Shown in pieces: positions 56-13,967 of a DNA stretch of 64,000 nt. The first letter of the stretch is position 1. Every line of letters begins with the position of its first letter. The position numbers were made by a program, and so were the translations under genes. This stretch comes from Devosia faecipullorum (GTDB lineage: Bacteria > Pseudomonadota > Alphaproteobacteria > Rhizobiales > Devosiaceae): assembly GCF_015158295.1 (NCBI RefSeq), contig NZ_JACDXV010000003.1, positions 1 through 64,000 of the forward strand. The letters are read 5' to 3'. The notes beneath the pieces are model-generated. The model did no database searches. It was not told where the DNA came from and was given only the letters and a program-made list of their open reading frames with translations.

Positions 56-1705
56 TCAACCCAAAGACGAGGCCGATACTCCGCTAATCCAAGACCCAAA
101 CTGCGCCAAATGATCTGACGACGGACAACGGCGAACATCTAGGTCTTGCATGGCACGCATCAAACTGATCCGAGAAAACAAGGGGAGGTTGCCCGAATTC
201 AGATTGGCGTCCCTATGCGTTATGACGCCGAAGACAACCTTGAAGCGTAGCGCATCGATTGGCACCAGATAATCGGCGAGATTGTTTGCGCCGATCCGTT
301 CCGTGACAAGCTGCCGAAGCTTATTCCTCGACACTTCCTCAAGTTGAACAAGATCAATAGAGTTGACGCCTTGGTTGAACAGGTGGCTGAGCGACGAAGA
401 TCGGGTCGAGATTTTTATATGGTAGAGCGTCGCCGTTGGCTCTGCATCTCCAGGAAGCACGCCGACCTCGTAGAGGTCGCACGGCTCGATTTCAGTGCTG
501 CCCATTGGACGGATGTCGGTGCGGTCTAAACAAATGTATCGACCATTCCAGCCCGGAACAGCTTCATTGTAAGCGCCCTCGCTGTAGGCGCGCTTCCCGT
601 CCTTTTCCTCGTCGTGATCGTATGGGCAAAGTGGATTTGCTTCGCAACGAGCATCCAGATAGTTGCGTAGACGGTCTACGAACGCCTTCTCGGCCCTGTA
701 CCATTCACCTTCGCAAAGGTGATAGATGACGTCCTCCCCGTTCGGCTCAACGTCGAAGATGACCGACCTATAGATGCTGTATGTGGGACCAGCGGTGCCA
801 TCGCTGTCGGTCAGCATGACCCGCATCTGCTTTAGGTCTTCTAGGTCTAGCTCGGCCGGATCATGTGCTGGCTGGACATACTCATAAAACGCACCCAATG
901 CGATGTCCGGATAAATGTCGCTCCGTCCGGCTCCCAGAAACATGCAGCAGGTGTTTCCACGATAATCCACGATGTCTGGTATCGTGAGTTCGACGTCTGC
1001 GCTTTGGACCCGAACCGCTGCCACCAAGAACGCATCGAGTTCTGCTATTTTGGAAGGGTCACGGACTGGCGCAATATTCTGGATATTCGGAAAGGCAGTC
1101 TTGTAGTCTTCGCTATCATAGAGGCCGAGTAGAGAAGCGCAAAGCTCAGGGAGCTGTGCCGAGGGTAGTTTTAGATTGATCTTGAGGGCGATTGAACCCG
1201 TAGCATTCTTAAAGAGTTCGGCGTGCTCCGCCTTCACCGCTCCGGTCAAACTGCGGATAATCTCGCTGTTACCGTCAAAGTCGAGGAAGGTCAGCTCCGT
1301 TGAGATTGGCACCTGTGTTCTCTTCCTAAGTGAGGGCCCAGGCGCCACCATGTCGGCACTTTTCAGCTTCGCTGGATCGATGCTGTTGAGGGATACCCTC
1401 AAGCCAAAATCATAAACATAGGCATGATCCTTCAGGTGGTGGGCAACATGGCCGAACGCGAGTACGAAATTCCGCTCGCCAACTGGCAAGAATAGCAGCG
1501 CGCCTTTGAAAACCTGGGTGAGGGGTTGCTCGACCTGAAAGTACTGACGCCACCACGGGGTGGTTGGCTCATCATCAAGTACAAACAGCGTCGCCCCCTC
1601 TGGCAGGTTGCCCGCATTCGCGACAGGCAAATCTTCCTTGAGAGTATTCTCAGCGTCGAAGCCAACTTTAAGTAGGTAAATCGAAAATGGGCGTGACTTC
1701 GCCAT
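56..1705 (-). CDS. DUF6119 / TIGR04141-type sporadically distributed protein
   Basis: A 549-residue protein that resembles the TIGR04141 (DUF6119) family, whose members occur patchily and often in defence islands. Visible hallmarks are an N-terminal stretch reading FSIYLLKVGFDAENTLKE, a central hydrophobic core, and a conserved-looking C-terminal section around LYHIKISTRSSSLSHLFNQG followed by a late segment KVVFGVITHR. I see no signal peptide, membrane segment or classical catalytic motif. The gene is transcribed away from hsdR; the 110 bp between the two starts must hold both promoters. The biochemical role of the family is not known to me, and a defence function here is inferred only from the neighbours. 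Confidence 0.8.
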   Translation of the reverse strand: MAKSRPFSIYLLKVGFDAENTLKEDLPVANAGNLPEGATLFVLDDEPTTPWWRQYFQVEQPLTQVFKGALLFLPVGERNFVLAFGHVAHHLKDHAYVYDFGLRVSLNSIDPAKLKSADMVAPGPSLRKRTQVPISTELTFLDFDGNSEIIRSLTGAVKAEHAELFKNATGSIALKINLKLPSAQLPELCASLLGLYDSEDYKTAFPNIQNIAPVRDPSKIAELDAFLVAAVRVQSADVELTIPDIVDYRGNTCCMFLGAGRSDIYPDIALGAFYEYVQPAHDPAELDLEDLKQMRVMLTDSDGTAGPTYSIYRSVIFDVEPNGEDVIYHLCEGEWYRAEKAFVDRLRNYLDARCEANPLCPYDHDEEKDGKRAYSEGAYNEAVPGWNGRYICLDRTDIRPMGSTEIEPCDLYEVGVLPGDAEPTATLYHIKISTRSSSLSHLFNQGVNSIDLVQLEEVSRNKLRQLVTERIGANNLADYLVPIDALRFKVVFGVITHRDANLNSGNLPLFSRISLMRAMQDLDVRRCPSSDHLAQFGSWISGVSASSLG

Positions 1706-1815: not shown

Positions 1816-4209
1816 ATGATGTCGACAGGGGGTAGTGCCGCCGTGAAAGAAGCGACAGCGCGGATCAAGATCAACAAGATGTTGGAGGAGGTTGGTTGGC
1901 GGTTTTTCGCGGACGCCAACGGGCCGGCCAACGTCGTCCTCGAGCCCAATGTGAAAGTCGCTTATTCTGACATCGATGCGCTAGGTGCCGACTTTGAGAA
2001 GCTGGCTGATGGCTTCATTGATTTCCTTCTTCTGGACCAAGACGGAAAGCCGCTGATTGTTCTAGAGGCCAAGTCGGAGAGCAAAAACCCACTGCTCGGC
2101 AAGGAGCAGGCACGGAAATATGCCCGATCACAGAATGCTCGCTTTATCATCCTCAGCAACGGCAATATCCACTACCTCTGGGACCTTGAGCAGGACAGTC
2201 CCGTCGTTATCTCCAAGTTTCCCGGGCCGGGCGAGATCAAGAACCACTATGCTTTTGAGCCCAACGCTGAGCGGCTGTCTGCGGAGCCCGTGGATCGCGA
2301 TTTCATCGTTCTCACCCAGATGCCAAGCTACGCCAGCGAGGCCGCATGGAAGAATGAGCAAGAGCGTTCGGCCTTCATCGAGAAAGCGAAGCTTCGCTTT
2401 CTGCGCGACTACCAAAAGCGCGCCGTCACGCGCGTGCAGGAAGCTGTAAGGGAGGGCTCAACTCGTTTCCTATTCGAAATGGCGACTGGCACCGGCAAGA
2501 CCCTCACCTCAGCCGCTGTGATCAAGCTGTTCCTAAAGACCCGAAATGCGAAGCGCGTTCTGTTTCTGGTTGACCGGTTGGAGCTCGAGGTCCAGGCCGA
2601 TAAAGCGTTCAAAGAGCTGCTCAGGAACGACTTCACGTCCATCATCTACAAGGAGCAGCGCGATGATTGGCGCAAGGCGGACATCGTCGTGACGACTGTT
2701 CAGTCGCTGCTCTTCAATGACAAGTATCGCCGCTTCTTCGCGCCAACCGACTTCGATCTGGTCATTTCCGACGAGGCTCATCGCTCAATTGGCGGTAATG
2801 CCCGTGCCGTGTTCGAGTATTTCATCGGGTACAAGCTCGGATTGACCGCCACACCGAAGGATTTTCTGAAGCAATCGAAATCTCACAACCCCACGCGCGA
2901 TCCTCGCGAGACCGAGCGCCGAATGATGCTCGATACCTACCGCACCTTTGGCTGCGAAACTGGAGAGCCAACCTTCCGCTACTCGCTGCTGGACGGGGTA
3001 AAGGACGGCTTCCTAATCAATCCGTACGTCGTTGATGCACGGACATCCGTGACCACTCAGCTCCTTTCGGATCGGGGCTTCGTCATTGATGTTGCAGATG
3101 ATGATGGAAACACGGGCCAAGAGACTTTCGCCGTCAGAGATTTTGAGAAACGCTTTTTTGCCGAGGCAACTAACGGCGCATTTTGTCAGACCCTGCTGAA
3201 GAACGGATTGCGCGACCCAATTTCGGGCGAGTTTGGCAAGACCATCGTGTTCGCGGTAAGCCAGAATCACGCTGCCAAGCTCACTCAGATACTCAATGAA
3301 ATGGCTGATCAGCTGTGGCCAGGCAAATACCAGTCGGATTTCGCCATGCAGGTCACCAGTCAGGTCCCCGATGCCCAGCGCATGACAATCAACTTTGCCA
3401 ACAACAATCTGGGCGGGCACAGTGCGTTCACGGCGGACTATCGCACCAGCAAGGCGAGAGTCTGCGTCACTGTGGGAATGATGACCACCGGCTATGACTG
3501 CCCCGACATTCTCAACCTTGCGCTGATGCGACCTATTTTTTCGCCGTCCGACTTTGTCCAGATGAAGGGTCGAGGAACGCGGGGTCACAACTTTGCTGAC
3601 CAGGTGGTTGACCCGACGAAAAAAACCTCGCTCGGCCGGGTGGCCAAGAAGGAGTTTCGTCTCTTCGACTTCTTCGCCAGCTGCGAGTATTTCGAAGAGA
3701 AGTTCCAATACGACGAAGAGCTGAAGCTCCCCCAAATCGCCGCAGCACCATTGGGGATTGGCGGCGATCAAGGCAGCGTCGCCACCGGTCGGAGCACCTT
3801 CGAGTTCACCGAGCCGGATCAGGTCGTCTATCAGGTCGAGCAGCAGGTTGGCCCGCAAGGGATGCGCGTCGATCGCGAGCTCTTCCAGAAGTTCGAGCAG
3901 ATTGCCCGGTCTGACCAGCAACTGTCCGACTTCGTAGATCAGCAGAATTGGGACGCAGCAGCCCGTCGCGTGATCGAAGAGCTATTCGACAAACCAAACG
4001 ACTACTTTAACCTCGAACGGTTGCGCCAAGCTGCCGGTGTGGATCGTCGCATTTCGATAAGAGAATTGCTGGAGAAGGCCTTTGGGCACATCTCGAAATT
4101 CAAGTCGAAAGATGAGCTAATCGAAGACGAGTTCCGCAAGTTCGTACTCGACCAAAAGCCAGAAGAAGCAGACCGCCTCAGGCAAATTCGCTATTTCTTC
4201 GAGGCCTAA
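1816..4209 (+). CDS. hsdR: Type I restriction enzyme R subunit (HsdR), C-terminus lost to a stop codon
   Basis: ATP-dependent translocase and nuclease subunit of a type I restriction system. The N-terminus holds a PD-(D/E)xK nuclease: Asp69 (or 74), Glu84-Ala-Lys86 and a QxxxY motif at 98-102. The helicase follows: Walker A ATGTGKT at 223-229, DEAH at 319-322, LTATP at 343-347, and a second RecA-like domain near residues 460-610. The frame stops at TAA 4207-4209 after 797 residues, but 54 further in-frame codons encode a typical HsdR C-terminus, so the product is about 55 residues short. ATG 1819 is an equally possible start. It is followed by the fused methylase/specificity gene. Whether the shortened subunit still joins the complex is unknown; the C-terminal region of HsdR contacts the methylase core in characterised systems. 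Confidence 0.92.
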   Translation: MMSTGGSAAVKEATARIKINKMLEEVGWRFFADANGPANVVLEPNVKVAYSDIDALGADFEKLADGFIDFLLLDQDGKPLIVLEAKSESKNPLLGKEQARKYARSQNARFIILSNGNIHYLWDLEQDSPVVISKFPGPGEIKNHYAFEPNAERLSAEPVDRDFIVLTQMPSYASEAAWKNEQERSAFIEKAKLRFLRDYQKRAVTRVQEAVREGSTRFLFEMATGTGKTLTSAAVIKLFLKTRNAKRVLFLVDRLELEVQADKAFKELLRNDFTSIIYKEQRDDWRKADIVVTTVQSLLFNDKYRRFFAPTDFDLVISDEAHRSIGGNARAVFEYFIGYKLGLTATPKDFLKQSKSHNPTRDPRETERRMMLDTYRTFGCETGEPTFRYSLLDGVKDGFLINPYVVDARTSVTTQLLSDRGFVIDVADDDGNTGQETFAVRDFEKRFFAEATNGAFCQTLLKNGLRDPISGEFGKTIVFAVSQNHAAKLTQILNEMADQLWPGKYQSDFAMQVTSQVPDAQRMTINFANNNLGGHSAFTADYRTSKARVCVTVGMMTTGYDCPDILNLALMRPIFSPSDFVQMKGRGTRGHNFADQVVDPTKKTSLGRVAKKEFRLFDFFASCEYFEEKFQYDEELKLPQIAAAPLGIGGDQGSVATGRSTFEFTEPDQVVYQVEQQVGPQGMRVDRELFQKFEQIARSDQQLSDFVDQQNWDAAARRVIEELFDKPNDYFNLERLRQAAGVDRRISIRELLEKAFGHISKFKSKDELIEDEFRKFVLDQKPEEADRLRQIRYFFEA

Positions 4210-4374
4210 ATCCGCGATCCGAAAGTGCGGGCGTTGATTGACGCAGGGCATTTTGGCGACCTGAACGTCAACCCAACCTTCACGACCCGCGACCTAAAGG
4301 AAGTGCCTGTGCCATGGCGCAAGCGCATCCCCGAATACATCAAGGACTATGTGTCCCTGAACCCCTTCCTTTGA
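4210..4374 (+). pseudogene. hsdR: Separated C-terminal coding tail of hsdR
   Basis: Reading on in the hsdR frame after the TAA gives 54 sense codons and then TGA at 4372-4374. The translation begins IRDPKVRALIDAGHFGDLNV and ends RIPEYIKDYVSLNPFL, which matches the usual end of HsdR proteins (…Y-I-x-D-P-x-V-R… and …IPEYIKDYVSLNxF). The stop falls where family members have the Tyr of the 'Y-I-x-D' step, so TAC or TAT to TAA is the simplest explanation. There is no separate start codon or ribosome site, so this tail is probably not translated. Confidence 0.85.
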
Positions 4375-4386
4375 CGAAAGACTGAT

Positions 4387-6996
4387 ATGCTCGACACCGA
4401 CACCAAACGTCGCATCGACACTTGCCGTGATATCCTCGTCGGTAAGGTGCCCGACCCGAAAAGCCAGGTCGAGCAGATCACCATCGCCCTCATCTACAAG
4501 TTCATGGACGACATGGACCTTGAGGCCGAAGAGTTGGGCGGCGAACGCCGCTTCTTTACGAAGGAGTTCGAGCGTTTCCGCTGGGCGAAACTGGTAGCCC
4601 CCGGTGTTTCTGGCCAGGACATGCTAAACACCTATGCCGAAGCGCTGACCAACATGGTGCAGAACGAGCACCTACCCAAACTCTTCCGCGACATATTCCG
4701 CAACGCGTATCTGCCTTACCGCGACCCCGAGACGCTGCGCGCCTTCCTGCGCGAGATAGATACCTTCAGCTATGATCACAGCGAACGGCTGGGTGATGCC
4801 TTCGAATACCTGCTTTCGGTTCTGGGCAGCCAAGGCGACGCGGGTCAGTTCCGCACGCCGCGCCACATCATCGATTTCATGGTCGAGATCATCGACCCGA
4901 AGAAGAACGAGGTCATCCTGGACCCGGCCTGCGGGACGGCGGGCTTCCTAATCTCGGCCTACAAGCACATCCTGAAACGGAACTCGACCGGGGTAGGCAA
5001 TGGAAACGGTACCAGCACCGAGGGCGACGCCGCCGAACAGGCGCTGGAAAGCCCGATGCGCTATTCGGGCGATTTGTTACAGCCCGAAGACCGGGCCCAC
5101 CTTGCCCGCAATATCAAAGGCTATGACATCTCTCCCGACATGGTTCGCCTGTCGCTGGTCAACCTTTACCTGCATGGCTTTGCCGACCCGAAGGTCGAGG
5201 AATACGACACTCTGACCAGCGAAGACAAATGGACCGAGATGGCTGACGTCGTTCTCGCCAACCCGCCCTTTATGTCGCCAAAAGGCGGGATCAAGCCGCA
5301 CACCCGCTTCCAAGTTCAATCCAAGCGCAGCGAAGTGCTGTTTGTCGACTATATCGCCGAACACCTGACCCCGAACGGCCGCGCCGCCATTGTCGTGCCC
5401 GAGGGGATCATCTTTCAGAGCCAAAGCGCCTATGTGGCCCTACGCAAGATGCTGGTCGAAAACCACCTCGCTGCTGTCATCTCGCTGCCCGCGGGCGTTT
5501 TCAACCCATATTCAGGCGTCAAGACTTCGATCCTTATCCTTGATCGCGCATTAGCCAAGGCGAGTAAGCACGTTGCTTTCTTCAAGATTGAAAAGGATGG
5601 ATTCAGCTTGGGCGCGCAGCGGAAGGCCGAGAAAGGCTCTCAACTGCCGCAGGTGAAGGCTGAGCTTGGGGCTTGGTTGCTGGCCGCGCGGGCTGGTGCC
5701 GGTGAGGGGTTGGAAAGCAACCTCGGAAGCGCGGTGGAGCGGGCACGTCTCGCAGAAGGCGGGGATTACAACCTGAGCGTCGAGCGCTATCGAGCGGCAG
5801 AGGCAGGCCAAATTTCAAGGTGGCCGATAGTAAAACTTGGTGAACATTGTGAATTTCGCACCGGCGGAACGCCAGCGTCAACGGTTGCAGAATACTACAC
5901 GGATGGCCAGGTGCCTTGGCTGGTATCTGGGGACATTCACAAGCGCGAAATCTTTGACTGCGAAAGGCGCATCACCCAAGCTGGCGTGGACAACTCAAAC
6001 GCACGACCCCTTCGGCGCAATTCAGTTTTGATTGCGCTCAACGGGCAAGGGAAGACCCGAGCAACAGTTGCGCTTTTGCGAATGGACGGCGCAACATGCA
6101 ACCAGTCCCTTGTCGCAATGTATCCCCTCAACGACGAAAACCTGGTCCCAGAGTTCCTGTTCTGGACGTTGCGTTCGAAGTATCAAGAAATCCGAGACAT
6201 CACCGGGGACAACCAACGAAGCGGTCTAAACATCCCCATTCTGAAAAGCATCGAAATTCCTCTGCCGCCGGTTGACGTGCAGCGCGAGATTGTGGCTGAG
6301 GTCGAGAGGTATCAGCGCGTCATCGACGGTGCCCGCGCCGTTCTAGACAATTATCGCCCCCACATCCCCGTTGACCCTGAATGGCCGATGGTGGAACTCG
6401 CGGCGGTGTTTGACGCGCTTGAAGGCGGGGTCAGCGTAAATTCCGAGAACCGGGCGAAGCTACCAGGCGAGGTGGGAGTGCTGAAAACCAGCGCCGTTAC
6501 GTCGGGAGTATTCAACCCAGATGAGCACAAAGCTGTATTGCCAGAAGAAGTGGACCGGGTGAAATGCAGCCCTCGAAAGGGCGCGATCATCATAAGCCGC
6601 ATGAATACTGAGGCCCTCGTTGGGGCAAGCGCGTATGTTGACGATGACTATCCCGACCTGTTTCTGCCGGATCGCCTGTGGCAGACGGTCATTTCCCGAA
6701 GGGATGTCAGTGCTAAATACATTCAAACGGTCATTTCTTCCGATGAATATCGAGCACGAATTTCCTCGATCTGCGGTGGAACCAGCGGAAGTATGAAGAA
6801 TGTCGCAAAGTCGCAACTTCTGAAAATCAAGGTTCCACTTCCCGACTACGATATTCAACAGAGCATTCTTATCGATATCGAAGCCGAACAGGAAATTGTT
6901 CGCGGCAATCGCGATCTAGAGGCCCGCTTTCAAAAAAAGATCGACGCCGCAATTGCCCGTGTCTGGGGTGAGGCCAGTAGTGATGGAGCAGACTGA
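4387..6996 (+). CDS. Fused type I DNA methylase and specificity subunit (HsdM-HsdS)
   Basis: One 869-residue protein joins two subunits that are usually separate. Residues 1 to about 475 are HsdM: an N-terminal HsdM_N helical domain, S-adenosylmethionine motif I DPACGTAGF at 179-187 and the catalytic N6-adenine motif NPPF at 292-295. From about residue 478 two target recognition domains follow, TRD1 (starting RWPIVKLGEHCEFRTGG) to about 640 and TRD2 (starting EWPMVELAAVFDALEGG near 664) to about 835, each ending in a coiled-coil-like helix. The protein should methylate a bipartite adenine-containing site and guide HsdR. ATG follows the end of the hsdR tail by 12 bp. The stop overlaps the next start (TGATG). 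Confidence 0.92.
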   Translation: MLDTDTKRRIDTCRDILVGKVPDPKSQVEQITIALIYKFMDDMDLEAEELGGERRFFTKEFERFRWAKLVAPGVSGQDMLNTYAEALTNMVQNEHLPKLFRDIFRNAYLPYRDPETLRAFLREIDTFSYDHSERLGDAFEYLLSVLGSQGDAGQFRTPRHIIDFMVEIIDPKKNEVILDPACGTAGFLISAYKHILKRNSTGVGNGNGTSTEGDAAEQALESPMRYSGDLLQPEDRAHLARNIKGYDISPDMVRLSLVNLYLHGFADPKVEEYDTLTSEDKWTEMADVVLANPPFMSPKGGIKPHTRFQVQSKRSEVLFVDYIAEHLTPNGRAAIVVPEGIIFQSQSAYVALRKMLVENHLAAVISLPAGVFNPYSGVKTSILILDRALAKASKHVAFFKIEKDGFSLGAQRKAEKGSQLPQVKAELGAWLLAARAGAGEGLESNLGSAVERARLAEGGDYNLSVERYRAAEAGQISRWPIVKLGEHCEFRTGGTPASTVAEYYTDGQVPWLVSGDIHKREIFDCERRITQAGVDNSNARPLRRNSVLIALNGQGKTRATVALLRMDGATCNQSLVAMYPLNDENLVPEFLFWTLRSKYQEIRDITGDNQRSGLNIPILKSIEIPLPPVDVQREIVAEVERYQRVIDGARAVLDNYRPHIPVDPEWPMVELAAVFDALEGGVSVNSENRAKLPGEVGVLKTSAVTSGVFNPDEHKAVLPEEVDRVKCSPRKGAIIISRMNTEALVGASAYVDDDYPDLFLPDRLWQTVISRRDVSAKYIQTVISSDEYRARISSICGGTSGSMKNVAKSQLLKIKVPLPDYDIQQSILIDIEAEQEIVRGNRDLEARFQKKIDAAIARVWGEASSDGAD

Positions 6997-7742
6997 TGGA
7001 CGAGGCTCTGGAACTGGGCACTTATCTGCCTCAGTCATTTGCAAATACCAATGAGCAAGCCTATCTTGATTTTCTCTGGTCTGCGTTTCAGACGAACTAC
7101 GAAGCGGGGCGCTACGAATTCGCGAGCCTCGCCTTTCATCTGCTTTACATGAGCTTTGTTAGCTTCTCGATCTGGCAAATTCGACTCGCTCGGCCTTTGC
7201 CCTTCGCAATGGCGATGGTCGGATTCGATAAGAGTGAGAGCGCGCTGATGGCATGCGAAAGCCCTTTCAAGTTCTACGACCAGCTAAAAGAGAGCCAGAT
7301 TTTTCGGTTTCTGAAACTCATTGGCTGTTCCAACCAGCAAGTGGGTGAGTTCGCAAAATTCGTTAAGCGCCGCAATAAGATAGCGCATCCGACCGGAACG
7401 GTCTTCTTCAATGATCAAGCTGAAATAGATGCTGAGATTGCGGACATGATGAAGGAGGTTCGCAACATCGAGGCTCATATGCAGCCGGTGATCGCGGAGC
7501 TCTACGAAGCCTTTCTGCGGGGCGAAAGCGCCGATCCTGAGTCGCGTCAGTACTCTGATTTGGCAGACGAAGTTCGAGTCAACCTTGTCCATGTGAACTA
7601 CATGTCCAGCGCTGACATCGCATATTGTCGTGATTTCGACCTGTCCGCACTGGAGGGGCAGCCATTGCACGACGAGATGCTGCTTTTGCATGACGCCTTG
7701 GTGGCCATCTATCCACCGGACGAGATGGGGGAAGCAGCGTGA
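6996..7742 (+). CDS. HEPN-like protein coupled to the type I system
   Basis: A 248-residue protein with no family name that I recognise. It is mostly helical in character and contains R126-NKIA-H131, which fits the R-x(4-6)-H active-site motif of HEPN-domain RNases and related proteins; the motif sits after a long helix-rich segment, as HEPN domains usually show. The start ATG overlaps the preceding TGA and the stop overlaps the following GTG, so translation is coupled to the methylase and nuclease genes. A role as a toxin-like RNase effector or as a structural partner is possible; sequence alone does not decide. An acidic C-terminal quarter follows the HEPN-like part. Confidence 0.6.
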   Translation: MDEALELGTYLPQSFANTNEQAYLDFLWSAFQTNYEAGRYEFASLAFHLLYMSFVSFSIWQIRLARPLPFAMAMVGFDKSESALMACESPFKFYDQLKESQIFRFLKLIGCSNQQVGEFAKFVKRRNKIAHPTGTVFFNDQAEIDAEIADMMKEVRNIEAHMQPVIAELYEAFLRGESADPESRQYSDLADEVRVNLVHVNYMSSADIAYCRDFDLSALEGQPLHDEMLLLHDALVAIYPPDEMGEAA

Positions 7743-8779
7743 CATCCTTATACGGTATCGTTGGCAACCAGCTTCTTCCCGCGAAGCGGCGGGCGCTCAC
7801 CAGGGAAAGCTTGATCGAGGACTGGCTCGCCGGTGATCCCACCCTTGCCGGGCTCGACGCGATGATTGTCGGACGACAGGTGCCTACCGACCACGGGAAG
7901 TTCATCGATCTACTCGCTATGGATGCCTCGGGGGCGCTCATCATCATCGAGCTGAAAAAAGACCGGACGCCGCGCGAGATCGTCGCCCAGGTTTTGGACT
8001 ACGCTTCATGGGTCCGCACGCTCACCACTCCCGAAATTTACGAACGCGCAGAGAAGTACCTCAATCAGCGCTTGGCGACAGCGTTCCGCGAGAAGTTCGG
8101 CGAACCGATACCGGATCAATTGAACGCCACACATTCCATGTTGATCGTTGCTAGCGAGCTCGACCCGGCGTCTAAGCGGATCGTGGAATACCTGTCTGAG
8201 GAACATGGCGTTGCGATCAACACTGTGTTTTTCAACGTTTTCGAGGCAAACGGGCAAGAGTGGCTGACAACGGATTTCCTGCTTGATCAGGAAGAGGTCG
8301 AAGAGCGCTCCGAACGCAAGGTTCGCGCTCCGTGGTCCGGCTACTTTTTTGCCAATGCTGGTCTCAACGAAAGCAGGACTTGGGAAGACTATCGCAAGTA
8401 TGGCTTCATAGCGGCGGGCGGCGGAGAATTCTATTCAGGCCGCTTGGGCCAGCTGAGCGTCGGCGACGAGCTTTTCCTCTTTGACAAAGGAAATGGCTAC
8501 CTGGGCCATGGTGTCGTTACCGAAGAAAAGACCCCAGCCGCTGACTTTCAGACGCCGGATGGTCCACTGCTCGAACAACCACTGCTTGGCCGCAACTTGG
8601 GACACGACGCCGACAATCCGGAGCTCGCCGAATATGTTGTGGGAATCGACTGGAAACACACCATCGAGCGCCCCCAGGGGAAGTGGTTCAAAGGCGCCTT
8701 CGCCAACCAGAACATTGTCTGCAAGCTTCGAGATCAGGCAACCGTGGATTTCCTGAAGTCGGAGTTTGGGCTGGAGTAG
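7739..8779 (+). CDS. NucS-like PD-(D/E)xK nuclease with C-terminal EVE/PUA-like domain
   Basis: 346 residues, starting at GTG 7739, which overlaps the stop of the upstream gene. The N-terminal half has the nuclease pattern Asp57, Glu71-Leu-Lys73 and a QxxxY motif at 84-88, as in DUF91/NucS-type endonucleases. The C-terminal part from about residue 198 (WSGYFFANAG, then YRKYGFIAAGGG, GDELFLF and GYLGHGVV) resembles a PUA-fold EVE-type module of the kind that reads modified bases. Such a nuclease-reader arrangement would fit a modification-dependent restriction enzyme, but that is inference. It closes a four-gene run with hsdR, hsdMS and the HEPN-like gene. The next 211 bp to the convergent integrase contain nothing I recognise. 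Confidence 0.75.
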   Translation: MTSLYGIVGNQLLPAKRRALTRESLIEDWLAGDPTLAGLDAMIVGRQVPTDHGKFIDLLAMDASGALIIIELKKDRTPREIVAQVLDYASWVRTLTTPEIYERAEKYLNQRLATAFREKFGEPIPDQLNATHSMLIVASELDPASKRIVEYLSEEHGVAINTVFFNVFEANGQEWLTTDFLLDQEEVEERSERKVRAPWSGYFFANAGLNESRTWEDYRKYGFIAAGGGEFYSGRLGQLSVGDELFLFDKGNGYLGHGVVTEEKTPAADFQTPDGPLLEQPLLGRNLGHDADNPELAEYVVGIDWKHTIERPQGKWFKGAFANQNIVCKLRDQATVDFLKSEFGLE

Positions 8780-8990: not shown

Positions 8991-10685
8991 TCAGGCCCTT
9001 GCCAAAGCGTCGAAATCGAGCCCCATGAAGATGCTCGGGTCGAAGCCATCTGGGAATGGCAGATTGGCGAGCAGCGGCGCATCGGTCGGATCGACAACGA
9101 GGTCGCCATAGTCCTCATGGGTGTCACGGCGGGAATGGCCGGCCTGCACGCGGCGGGAGTATTCGGTGACCCCCGCCTCCCGCATCCGGGTCGTGCACTG
9201 GTGCCGGAACCCGTGATAGGAGCCACCCGTCTCGGCTTCCTTGAGCAACTTATTCGCGGCCTTCTGCATCGCGTCTTCAGGGTCGTCGCATTGGTTCATG
9301 CGCTCGAAGATGAAACCCGGTTGCCGCATGGCCCAATCAACAAAGCCGATCTCATCGAAAAACCGATGCATGATGAAGCCGTCTAGCGAAGCCGCCGTCT
9401 TATAGCCATTGTTCTCCAACGCCCCGTCTTCGTCACGAAAGTGCTGATCGAGGCTCGCCACCACATAGTCGCCCACACGCCGGATGTTGGGTCCCTGCAA
9501 TCGCGTAAGCAGCCCGATGCGCCGCCCGGTCCAGAAGCCAAGCGGCAGGATCAGCGCCTTGTGCAACTCGCCCGATTCCACCCCGAGATGGAACGCCTTC
9601 GCCACCTTTGCTATGGCAGGTGCCTTGCGACGCTTCGGCTCCGCGAAGATTGACGGATAGAAAAGCCGTGCACCCGCAAAAGGATCGGTGACGCCCGCGT
9701 TGGCAGCGGCAAGCGCCGTGATCGCCTTGATGTCGGCGAGATAATGGCCGCTGACCGTGTTGCGCGCCATGACTCCATATTGGTGCTTGTCGTTCATCGC
9801 GAGGATTTCCAATGCGGTCTTACCCTCGAACGCTTTCACGTCGTCGCGCTCAGGCGGCCAATATTGCAACTGGTTGAGATAGGCTTGGAGATCGGGAGCG
9901 CCATAGTCACTGATGGGCTTATCTCCCATCAACGAGGCGAACAGTTCGGCGCGTCCACGAATCGAATGAATATCGCCACTTTCTTTGCCGCCATTGGCGG
10001 CAATTCTGGTGTCGAGATAGGTTTTGGTCGCAGCACGGAAAGTCGGGACCGAGGACGACGCACCATCAACGGTGGCGGCGATGGCGTTGGCCTGCCGTTC
10101 CAAGGCCGTGGTCAGGCGCTCCATCGCCATAGCCAGAGGCCCCACGTCGGATGGCCCCGCCCCTGCCGCACTCTCCCCACGCATCTTATCAATGGCACTC
10201 TGGCGCAGTCGGTCGGCGTTTTCCGCCACGTAGCGCGATGTCGGCTCTTCCTTGTTGATTAGGATCAGGTCCCGCAAACCATCGATATAGGGGTCAGGTG
10301 CAGGATCGGATTTCGCCGCCATATCCAGCGACAATTCGAGCCCCCGAAAGAACCCCGTCCATTCGGCCATTGCCACAGGGGTAAGGTCAAACACCGATTG
10401 GTCTTCGACCTGCATCTCTTCGGCCATGCCACGCACCTTACTGGAAACACTCTCAGCCGCAGCCGCGAGCAGTCGAGCCCTTCGGTTCGCCTCGCGGATT
10501 GGCAACGCGCCTATTGAACAACGGAAAAAATGGATTCGCACATGTTTCTTGATGTCGGCGGGGACACGGACCTGAAACCGCCAGCCGGATCCATGCCGGG
10601 TCAGGTAGCGGGTCGATCGCTCGGTGGAGAGTCTGGGTACATTCGTGGGTACAATCATGGGTACGACGCTCGACGGAATGGCCAT
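8991..10685 (-). CDS. Tyrosine recombinase / phage-type integrase
   Basis: 564-residue site-specific recombinase. The N-terminus (YLTRHGSGWRFQVRVPADI) looks like the DUF6538 arm-type domain. The catalytic domain carries the expected residues: Arg388 or 389 in WTGRR, Lys429, His491-x-x-Arg494 in HGFRH, His517 in AGHSRR and the nucleophile Tyr526. All are present, so the enzyme may be active. The gene starts about 70 bp from the 3' end of tRNA-Ser and reads away from it, the classical layout of an island integrase next to its attachment site. It is the likely agent that brought in the genes at 56-8779. Confidence 0.93.
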   Translation of the reverse strand: MAIPSSVVPMIVPTNVPRLSTERSTRYLTRHGSGWRFQVRVPADIKKHVRIHFFRCSIGALPIREANRRARLLAAAAESVSSKVRGMAEEMQVEDQSVFDLTPVAMAEWTGFFRGLELSLDMAAKSDPAPDPYIDGLRDLILINKEEPTSRYVAENADRLRQSAIDKMRGESAAGAGPSDVGPLAMAMERLTTALERQANAIAATVDGASSSVPTFRAATKTYLDTRIAANGGKESGDIHSIRGRAELFASLMGDKPISDYGAPDLQAYLNQLQYWPPERDDVKAFEGKTALEILAMNDKHQYGVMARNTVSGHYLADIKAITALAAANAGVTDPFAGARLFYPSIFAEPKRRKAPAIAKVAKAFHLGVESGELHKALILPLGFWTGRRIGLLTRLQGPNIRRVGDYVVASLDQHFRDEDGALENNGYKTAASLDGFIMHRFFDEIGFVDWAMRQPGFIFERMNQCDDPEDAMQKAANKLLKEAETGGSYHGFRHQCTTRMREAGVTEYSRRVQAGHSRRDTHEDYGDLVVDPTDAPLLANLPFPDGFDPSIFMGLDFDALARA

Positions 10686-10752: not shown

Positions 10753-10842
10753 TGGCGGAGAGAGAGGGATTCGAACCCTCGAGACGGTTCCCCGCCTACA
10801 CACTTTCCAGGCGTGCGCCTTCGACCACTCGGCCATCTCTCC
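10753..10842 (-). tRNA. tRNA-Ser (anticodon GGA)
   Basis: On the minus strand a 90-nt gene runs from GGAGAGA to TCTCTCC-G-CCA, with a paired 7-bp acceptor stem, GTTCGAATC in the T loop, a long variable arm typical of tRNA-Ser, and anticodon GGA in the loop context CTGGAAA. CCA is encoded. Its 3' end faces the integrase gene and is the likely attachment site of the island to the left. Confidence 0.95.
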
Positions 10843-11081
10843 GCATCGCCTGAATCGGACCCGGAGGGCAGAAACACAGCCCTGGACGGCCGTTGCGAGC
10901 GTGGCGCAATATACCCATGATCGGGGCGGGCGCAAGGGATCACTTCGATCACTGCACGATTGTTTTTCGCACACGGAATAGCGTCTTGTGACAATCGGCT
11001 TTGGCGTGGCAAAAGGGGCTGGCACCGTGAACATGAGCCGGGGGCGGATCGGCTTGACCTCGGCAAGTACAGGGACAGTGT

Positions 11082-11405
11082 ATGCGGCTCGTCTTCAGAC
11101 TATTGGGAACCTGGCTGATCGGCGTGGCGCTGATATTTCTTGTCATCGACGGGACAAAATCACTGGCCGCCAACGAAATTATCTTTGTCAGCCTGGAGCA
11201 GGCCTGGTCTCAATTGCACCCGCCCAGCCTTGAGGCGTTCGGCAGCTTTCTCGACAGCCGGTTCTTTGCCGATCTGCTGCGACCCATGCTGGCGGCGCTG
11301 CTGAGCTTTCCCGCCTTTGCCGTTCTGGCGGCGCCCGGCATCGCCCTGGCACTGGCCGGGCGTCGGCCGCGCCGCGACGGCTTCCTGCGCCAGGAGCAGA
11401 TCTAG
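11082..11405 (+). CDS. Small hypothetical membrane protein
   Basis: A 107-residue protein with two hydrophobic segments, residues about 7-26 (LLGTWLIGVALIFLVID) and about 78-97 (FPAFAVLAAPGIALALAG), and a short basic C-terminus. The ATG is preceded by AGGGAC at a suitable distance. I do not recognise a family. It is convergent with gyrB and stands alone between tRNA-Ser and gyrB, so its context says little beyond that it sits in the core rather than the island. Confidence 0.7.
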   Translation: MRLVFRLLGTWLIGVALIFLVIDGTKSLAANEIIFVSLEQAWSQLHPPSLEAFGSFLDSRFFADLLRPMLAALLSFPAFAVLAAPGIALALAGRRPRRDGFLRQEQI

Positions 11406-11516
11406 CGGTCGTGAAGGCGAGCCCGTCCCGACCGACTTTCAAGCGATTTCGTAGGACGACAGCGCCCGTGACGCCGGCCGAGACCGTGGCCTGAGCCACG
11501 GCCCCGTTCGAGTGCG

Positions 11517-13967
<2,451 letters not shown>

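Follow-up and report, generated by a model that had tools for sequence, protein, structure and literature searches.

What does a gene for a HEPN-like protein do directly behind a type I restriction-modification (R-M) operon? The question is raised by a 64,000-nucleotide (nt) stretch of Devosia faecipullorum (contig NZ_JACDXV010000003.1, positions 1 to 64,000; hereafter the window), in which hsdR, a fused hsdMS, a gene for a 248-amino-acid (aa) protein and a gene for a 346-aa protein follow each other on the forward strand (Table 1). A sequence-only reading had taken the four genes as one candidate composite defense operon. Their places are confirmed, as are the overlaps at the last two junctions: the start of the 248-aa gene sits within the hsdMS stop (TGATG, 6994-6998), and the 346-aa gene overlaps the stop of the third gene (GTGA, 7739-7742). 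Comparison with other loci defines a smaller unit. The core is hsdR-hsdMS-HEPN, and the fourth gene is optional. An even chance is given to the explanation that the third product is a PrrC-like backup HEPN ribonuclease (RNase), leashed by the type I R-M complex and freed when this complex is disabled.

The core emerges from loci found with the HEPN protein as bait, which comprise 11 genome contigs, one plasmid, three viral contigs and one whole genome (G633) besides the window's own. hsdMS lies upstream of the HEPN gene in all 15 testable loci (genome contigs 10/10, plasmid 1/1, viral contigs 3/3, whole genome 1/1). They stem from alpha-, beta- and gammaproteobacterial records, and the HEPN identities reach down to approximately 44%. 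hsdMS is the immediate neighbor in 14 of the 15, and one open reading frame (ORF) stands between in L003. Coupling is tight, the genes at the junctions overlapping briefly or lying a few bases apart. In L009, hsdR is fragmented and hsdMS is split into two ORFs. The tallies leave out L006, where upstream room is missing, and L005, where the downstream room is too small. Absence was called on ORFs of at least 80 aa (at least 60 aa in one analysis) at BLAST E thresholds of 1e-4 or 1e-5. The HEPN gene is sporadic, occurring in 1/385 genomes of the class and 2/397 of the order (the window's own counted in both), and was not found in the 11 other same-genus and nine same-family genomes of the sample. 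A 40-residue match in G731 (L019, E 5e-4) was dropped, since its ORFs gave no BLAST match at 1e-4. In a HEPN-related search, the phage record MT836552 matched at one place with 22% identity.

In contrast to hsdMS, the gene for the 346-aa protein, PDC-S11, comes next after the HEPN gene in only 6 of 16 testable loci (window counted, L005 left out). The conserved linkage expected from the sequence does exist: the full four-gene order recurs in L002, L004, L010 and L015, the last two genes are present in L006, whose contig begins at the HEPN gene, and the 4-nt overlap between the HEPN and PDC-S11 genes is kept in 6/6. These observations would suit one composite system of all four genes, layered on unmodified DNA, modified DNA and RNA. 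The four-gene unit was nevertheless rejected, because PDC-S11 is missing from the remaining ten loci. The protein is moreover already catalogued. Of the 89 plasmid records that contain PDC-S11 relatives, four were examined; in three, the part read lacks an annotated R-M gene, and in the other one the relative is divergent from a type I operon. PDC-S11 as bait yielded four viral loci. One of them (L035, the same contig as L015) is this gene run, one (L036) has no upstream room, and two (L037, L038) are without relatives of the HsdR, HsdMS or HEPN protein of the window. A single four-gene system is considered very improbable. In L011, an AbiD/Abi_2 gene occupies the fourth place.

The 346-aa protein matches the PADLOC profile PDLC04916 (PDC-S11) with E 2.7e-122 (residues 9-345 against profile positions 11-356 of 358), and Pfam NucS_C matches below threshold only. 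The architecture proposed earlier, a PD-(D/E)xK nuclease with an EVE/PUA domain, is present with an intact nuclease motif. From this sequence, the protein is predicted to cut DNA with modified bases. In Rhizobium mongolense (L002, 11832-15075), genes with matches to PADLOC NsnA, NsnB and NsnC are located directly behind PDC-S11.

For the third gene, the predicted product is a HEPN ribonuclease. A structural model of the 248-aa protein has its best, though modest, matches in HEPN-superfamily domains. The motif R126-x4-H131 agrees with the Rx4-6H pattern of the superfamily, its R, N and H being invariant across the family; the motif as read from the sequence is upheld, and a HEPN-like fold is supported by the model. 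RiboL-PSP-HEPN (PF18735) is the top Pfam match for eight of ten members tested, always below the gathering cut-off of 28.4 bits (window protein 16.7, seven further members 17.3-23.5). L018 and the remote relative in L030 have no RiboL-PSP-HEPN match in Pfam, no PADLOC HEPN model matched the five family members tested, and a sequence-profile search of the PDB with the HEPN alignment gave nothing meaningful. Pfam yields no AbiU2 match for the window protein at E <= 0.1; one source labels its relative P0044 as "HEPN AbiU2-like". Neither an ATPase domain nor a signal-sensing domain was found with Pfam and NCBIfam profiles. CRISPR Csn2 is the sole PADLOC match and the better of two NCBIfam matches (E 0.0008, 0.003). 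This assignment was rejected, as the match is weak, covers about one third of the protein and has no fold support. A HEPN toxin with a minimal nucleotidyltransferase antitoxin was likewise rejected, because no nucleotidyltransferase gene lies next to the HEPN gene in the window, its neighbors being hsdMS and PDC-S11. The ORF between hsdMS and the HEPN gene in L003 (9360-9998) encodes 213 aa with the motif RNALAH (RxxxxH) and has no Pfam match; the two genes are possibly tandem HEPN-like genes.

In Escherichia coli, the RNase PrrC is silenced by the type Ic enzyme EcoprrI and freed by the Stp peptide of phage T4 (PMC3014915). The gene order, its conservation and the missing antitoxin fit this logic, the absence of the antitoxin making the Hsd proteins the nearest leash candidates. 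The genes would be co-transcribed, and the Hsd complex would hold the HEPN ribonuclease silent. A phage protein or DNA damage that disables the complex would release the putatively toxic enzyme to cleave RNA of the cell or of the phage, which would halt both growth and phage multiplication. As an add-on, PDC-S11 would extend protection to phages that escape the type I enzyme through modified bases.

The R-M part is of type I. Pfam assigns ResIII/HSDR_N to the hsdR product, and N6_Mtase and two Methylase_S stretches to the hsdMS product. An R subunit with a PD-(D/E)xK nuclease (D69...E84-x-K86) and a superfamily 2 helicase (Walker A, DEAH box), an N6 methyltransferase M part and S recognition domains are all present. 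HsdR scores 218.2 bits with NCBIfam NF046051 (EcoAI/FtnUII HsdR equivalog), under the curated cut-off of 550. The R subunit of the window is not full-length. An in-frame TAA (4207-4209) ends it approximately 55 residues short of its relatives, eight of eight of which run on in the alignment. The next 54 codons in the hsdR frame still read like the C-terminus of the relatives, so the 177-bp gap before hsdMS holds the former end of hsdR. The early stop may be a sequencing error. The nuclease and helicase motifs all lie upstream of it. The earlier suggestion that the system restricts unmodified DNA may not hold for the window copy with its truncated HsdR. The truncation also bears on another explanation, in which the HEPN protein is switched on by restriction itself, through products of DNA translocation or cleavage, and works alongside the type I enzyme. 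Tight linkage would be expected from such a mechanism. It is judged improbable, as the HEPN motif is intact behind the truncated HsdR and profile searches found no signal-sensing domain.

HsdR as bait provides a selection that is independent of the HEPN gene. Thirteen viral loci were obtained, 11 of them usable: L025 is a 99.99% copy of L024, and L033 is identical to L025 and ends inside hsdR. L022 is the same contig as L015, L026 as L016 and L027 as L017. The HEPN family occupies the third slot in five of the 11 (L022, L023, L026, L027, L034), three of these contigs having also been recovered by the HEPN bait. L030 carries a remote HEPN relative (27%) followed by DUF3644/PDC-S19 and raises the tally to 6/11. 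The slot is taken by PDC-S60 in L031 and by a NucC-like DUF6602 protein, followed by RadC, in L029. No same-strand gene lies directly behind the hsdMS position in L024, L028 and L032; in L032, a separate specificity gene comes after hsdM. The HsdR bait matched 71 plasmid records, 56 of them at 60-80% identity; five of these 56 were examined, and a Paracoccus plasmid (L013) has HEPN in the slot. Among the whole genomes, a close HsdR was found in 2/397 of the order, namely the window's and G633, each of which has HEPN, and in 2/385 of the class (window and G371). In this analysis, the HEPN family turned up behind a single HsdR-HsdMS lineage only, the slot of which also takes unrelated defense genes. 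In L013, two reverse-strand genes (10946-12501) face the HEPN gene, one of DUF6602 and the other with sub-threshold SMODS/NTP_transf_2 matches; DUF6602 also occupies the slot of L029.

Exchange at this slot is visible in pairs of loci. L030 and L031, from one metagenome, share two flanks: one, at 89%, spans hsdR (HsdR 97% identical) and the larger part of the methyltransferase section of hsdMS, and the other, at 90%, covers 4.2 kb behind the slot. Between these flanks, the specificity parts differ, and the remote HEPN with DUF3644/PDC-S19 stands against PDC-S60. L023 and L024 match upstream, through hsdR and downstream, but diverge across the greater part of hsdMS; L023 has HEPN, and L024, where a phage terminase comes after, lacks it. 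L013 and L015 match from hsdR to the end of hsdMS except for a single block of some 490 bases. In a quick HsdR tree of 23 rows, three changes account for the HEPN label, compared with a mean of 6.8 after shuffling (2 of 500 as low), a statistic inflated by near-copies. L006, L008, L009 and L034, in which hsdR is fragmented or missing from the contig, were left out. Over 15 loci, the identities of HsdR and HEPN correlate weakly (r 0.49; 49 of 5000 permutations as high), as follows from swaps of the third gene.

Loose co-evolution and slot exchange keep alive the alternative of an independent abortive-infection or addiction toxin, whose gene would follow the R-M genes for the sake of joint expression and mobility, and which would answer to a trigger of its own without contact to Hsd proteins. 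The third gene is swapped while the chassis stays, other defense genes fill or come after the slot, and the loci are sporadic. A free passenger would, however, be expected alone as well, and hsdMS was upstream in every testable locus down to the most distant identities. Such a passenger is regarded as unlikely. The same exchange admits a broader form of the guarding idea, in which this type I branch is a general sensor-and-leash chassis that silences any gene behind hsdMS and fires it when restriction is blocked. Its effectors would be the HEPN RNase, the STAND-phosphoesterase PDC-S60, the NucC-like nuclease and the TrlF ATPase, and swapping one gene, sometimes with the specificity part, would change the suicide weapon. 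This generalization is doubtful.

Several results weigh against a HEPN RNase silenced by its Hsd proteins. An intact HEPN gene persists in the window strain together with a truncated HsdR, which means that silencing cannot depend on full-length HsdR alone. This leaves three options: the shortened HsdR is still functional, HsdMS is enough of a leash by itself, or the leash model fails. The protein is without the ATPase domain of PrrC, the fold match is modest, and the match by Foldseek alone is weak. HEPN is absent from five of the 11 usable viral loci of the HsdR bait. Four examined enterobacterial IncF plasmids (L014, L046, L047, L048) carry hsdR-hsdMS-TrlF/Ppl near finO, with the TrlF/Ppl gene instead of HEPN; the Ppl profile was run for L014 only, and the other three were called by annotation and size. 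A near copy of the IncF hsdR (at least 99% identity) occurs in 77 of 5426 complete E. coli genomes and is always plasmid-borne. The third gene of G371 (L040, 9374-10447) encodes a 357-aa protein that is not HEPN. Its hits, all below cut-off, are weak matches to membrane-protein models only, and it is possibly a membrane effector. L013 and L015 share 87% identity in HsdR compared with 46% in HEPN. A third gene replaceable with so little change in HsdR disfavors a finely co-evolved contact.

PrrC is the textbook example of a restriction enzyme that guards a latent RNase. A HEPN family tied to one HsdR-HsdMS lineage, in a slot shared with unrelated defense genes, would reveal whether type I enzymes act as guards in general, and hsdR-hsdMS-HEPN provides a compact three-gene test. 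The case also argues for reading hypothetical genes that directly follow hsdS or hsdMS as effectors.

Table 1. Features of the gene run and its right border in the window.
Feature	Position	Strand	Basis or remark
hsdR, type I restriction subunit, 797 aa	1816..4209	+	alignment with 8 relatives, family profiles
54 codons and stop in the hsdR frame, like the C-terminus of relatives' HsdR	4210..4374	+	alignment
hsdMS fusion (869 aa) of an N6 methyltransferase followed by two specificity stretches	4387..6996	+	profiles
HEPN-like protein of 248 aa in the third slot of the cluster, a predicted RNase effector	6996..7742	+	
R126-N-K-I-A-H131 motif of the HEPN protein	7371..7388	+	R, N, H invariant
346-aa PDC-S11 protein, optional fourth gene	7739..8779	+	shares 4 nt with the HEPN gene
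PD-(D/E)xK (NucS/EndoMS-like) domain, residues 22-167 of the PDC-S11 protein	7802..8239	+	
EVE/PUA-like domain, residues 200-344 of the PDC-S11 protein	8336..8770	+	
Integrase (PHROG 1), beside the tRNA gene; mobile-island context, outside the described cluster	8991..10685	-	
tRNA-Ser(GGA), likely integration site	10753..10842	-	inferred from the neighboring integrase

The integrase and the tRNA-Ser gene form the right border of the region. The defense genes have a GC content of 0.52-0.57, compared with 0.62 in window positions 14000-64000. The window starts with the contig, so that the far (left) end of the island is out of view, and a search of the window for an att site turned up no further copy of the tRNA-Ser 3' end (at least 14 nt). 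Left of hsdR, a divergent gene (56-1705, reverse strand) encodes a TIGR04141/DUF6119 "sporadically distributed" protein (E 1.1e-117). A homologue (62% identity) borders the same gene run on the opposite side in L010 (11873-13756). A literature search on DUF6119 yielded nothing relevant.

The sequence-only reading could not name this arrangement. The general ideas are already in print: at least 16 HEPN clades are linked to R-M genes, with a PrrC-like multi-pronged defense proposed in 2013 (PMC3710099), and EVE proteins beside type I R-M genes were published in 2020 (PMC7641849). Searches of open-license PMC papers, with PMC12813430 and PMC13092281 among those consulted, yielded none in which the operon or its variable third slot is named. 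The HEPN family may fall under a published clade, since AbiU2 is among the clades in R-M operons (Table 1 of PMC3710099) and one relative is labelled AbiU2-like; the window protein differs from those clades in its sub-threshold RiboL-PSP-HEPN score and missing AbiU2 match. CoCoNuT (McrBC) and BREX-related systems also couple HEPN effectors to DNA restriction machinery (PMC11090510, PMC12839542); their marks McrB, McrC, DUF499, PglZ and BrxC are not among the family matches of the four genes. The fourth product matches PADLOC PDC-S11 nearly end to end, and only its position behind a HEPN gene sets it apart. PDC candidates derive from a guilt-by-embedding approach, for which a 2024 preprint is cited (Payne et al., in PMC12988326). 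VcaM4I, an EVE modification-dependent nuclease, has an HNH nuclease, whereas the window protein has PD-(D/E)xK and its modification dependence is predicted. The nearest precedent with experimental tests is PrrC/EcoprrI, likewise a HEPN-superfamily RNase gene within a type I R-M cluster (PMC3710099, PMC3014915). PrrC has an N-terminal ABC ATPase part, for which no counterpart was detected in the 248-aa protein, and its gene lies between hsdS and hsdR (hsdM-hsdS-prrC-hsdR), whereas the HEPN gene of the window comes after hsdR-hsdMS.

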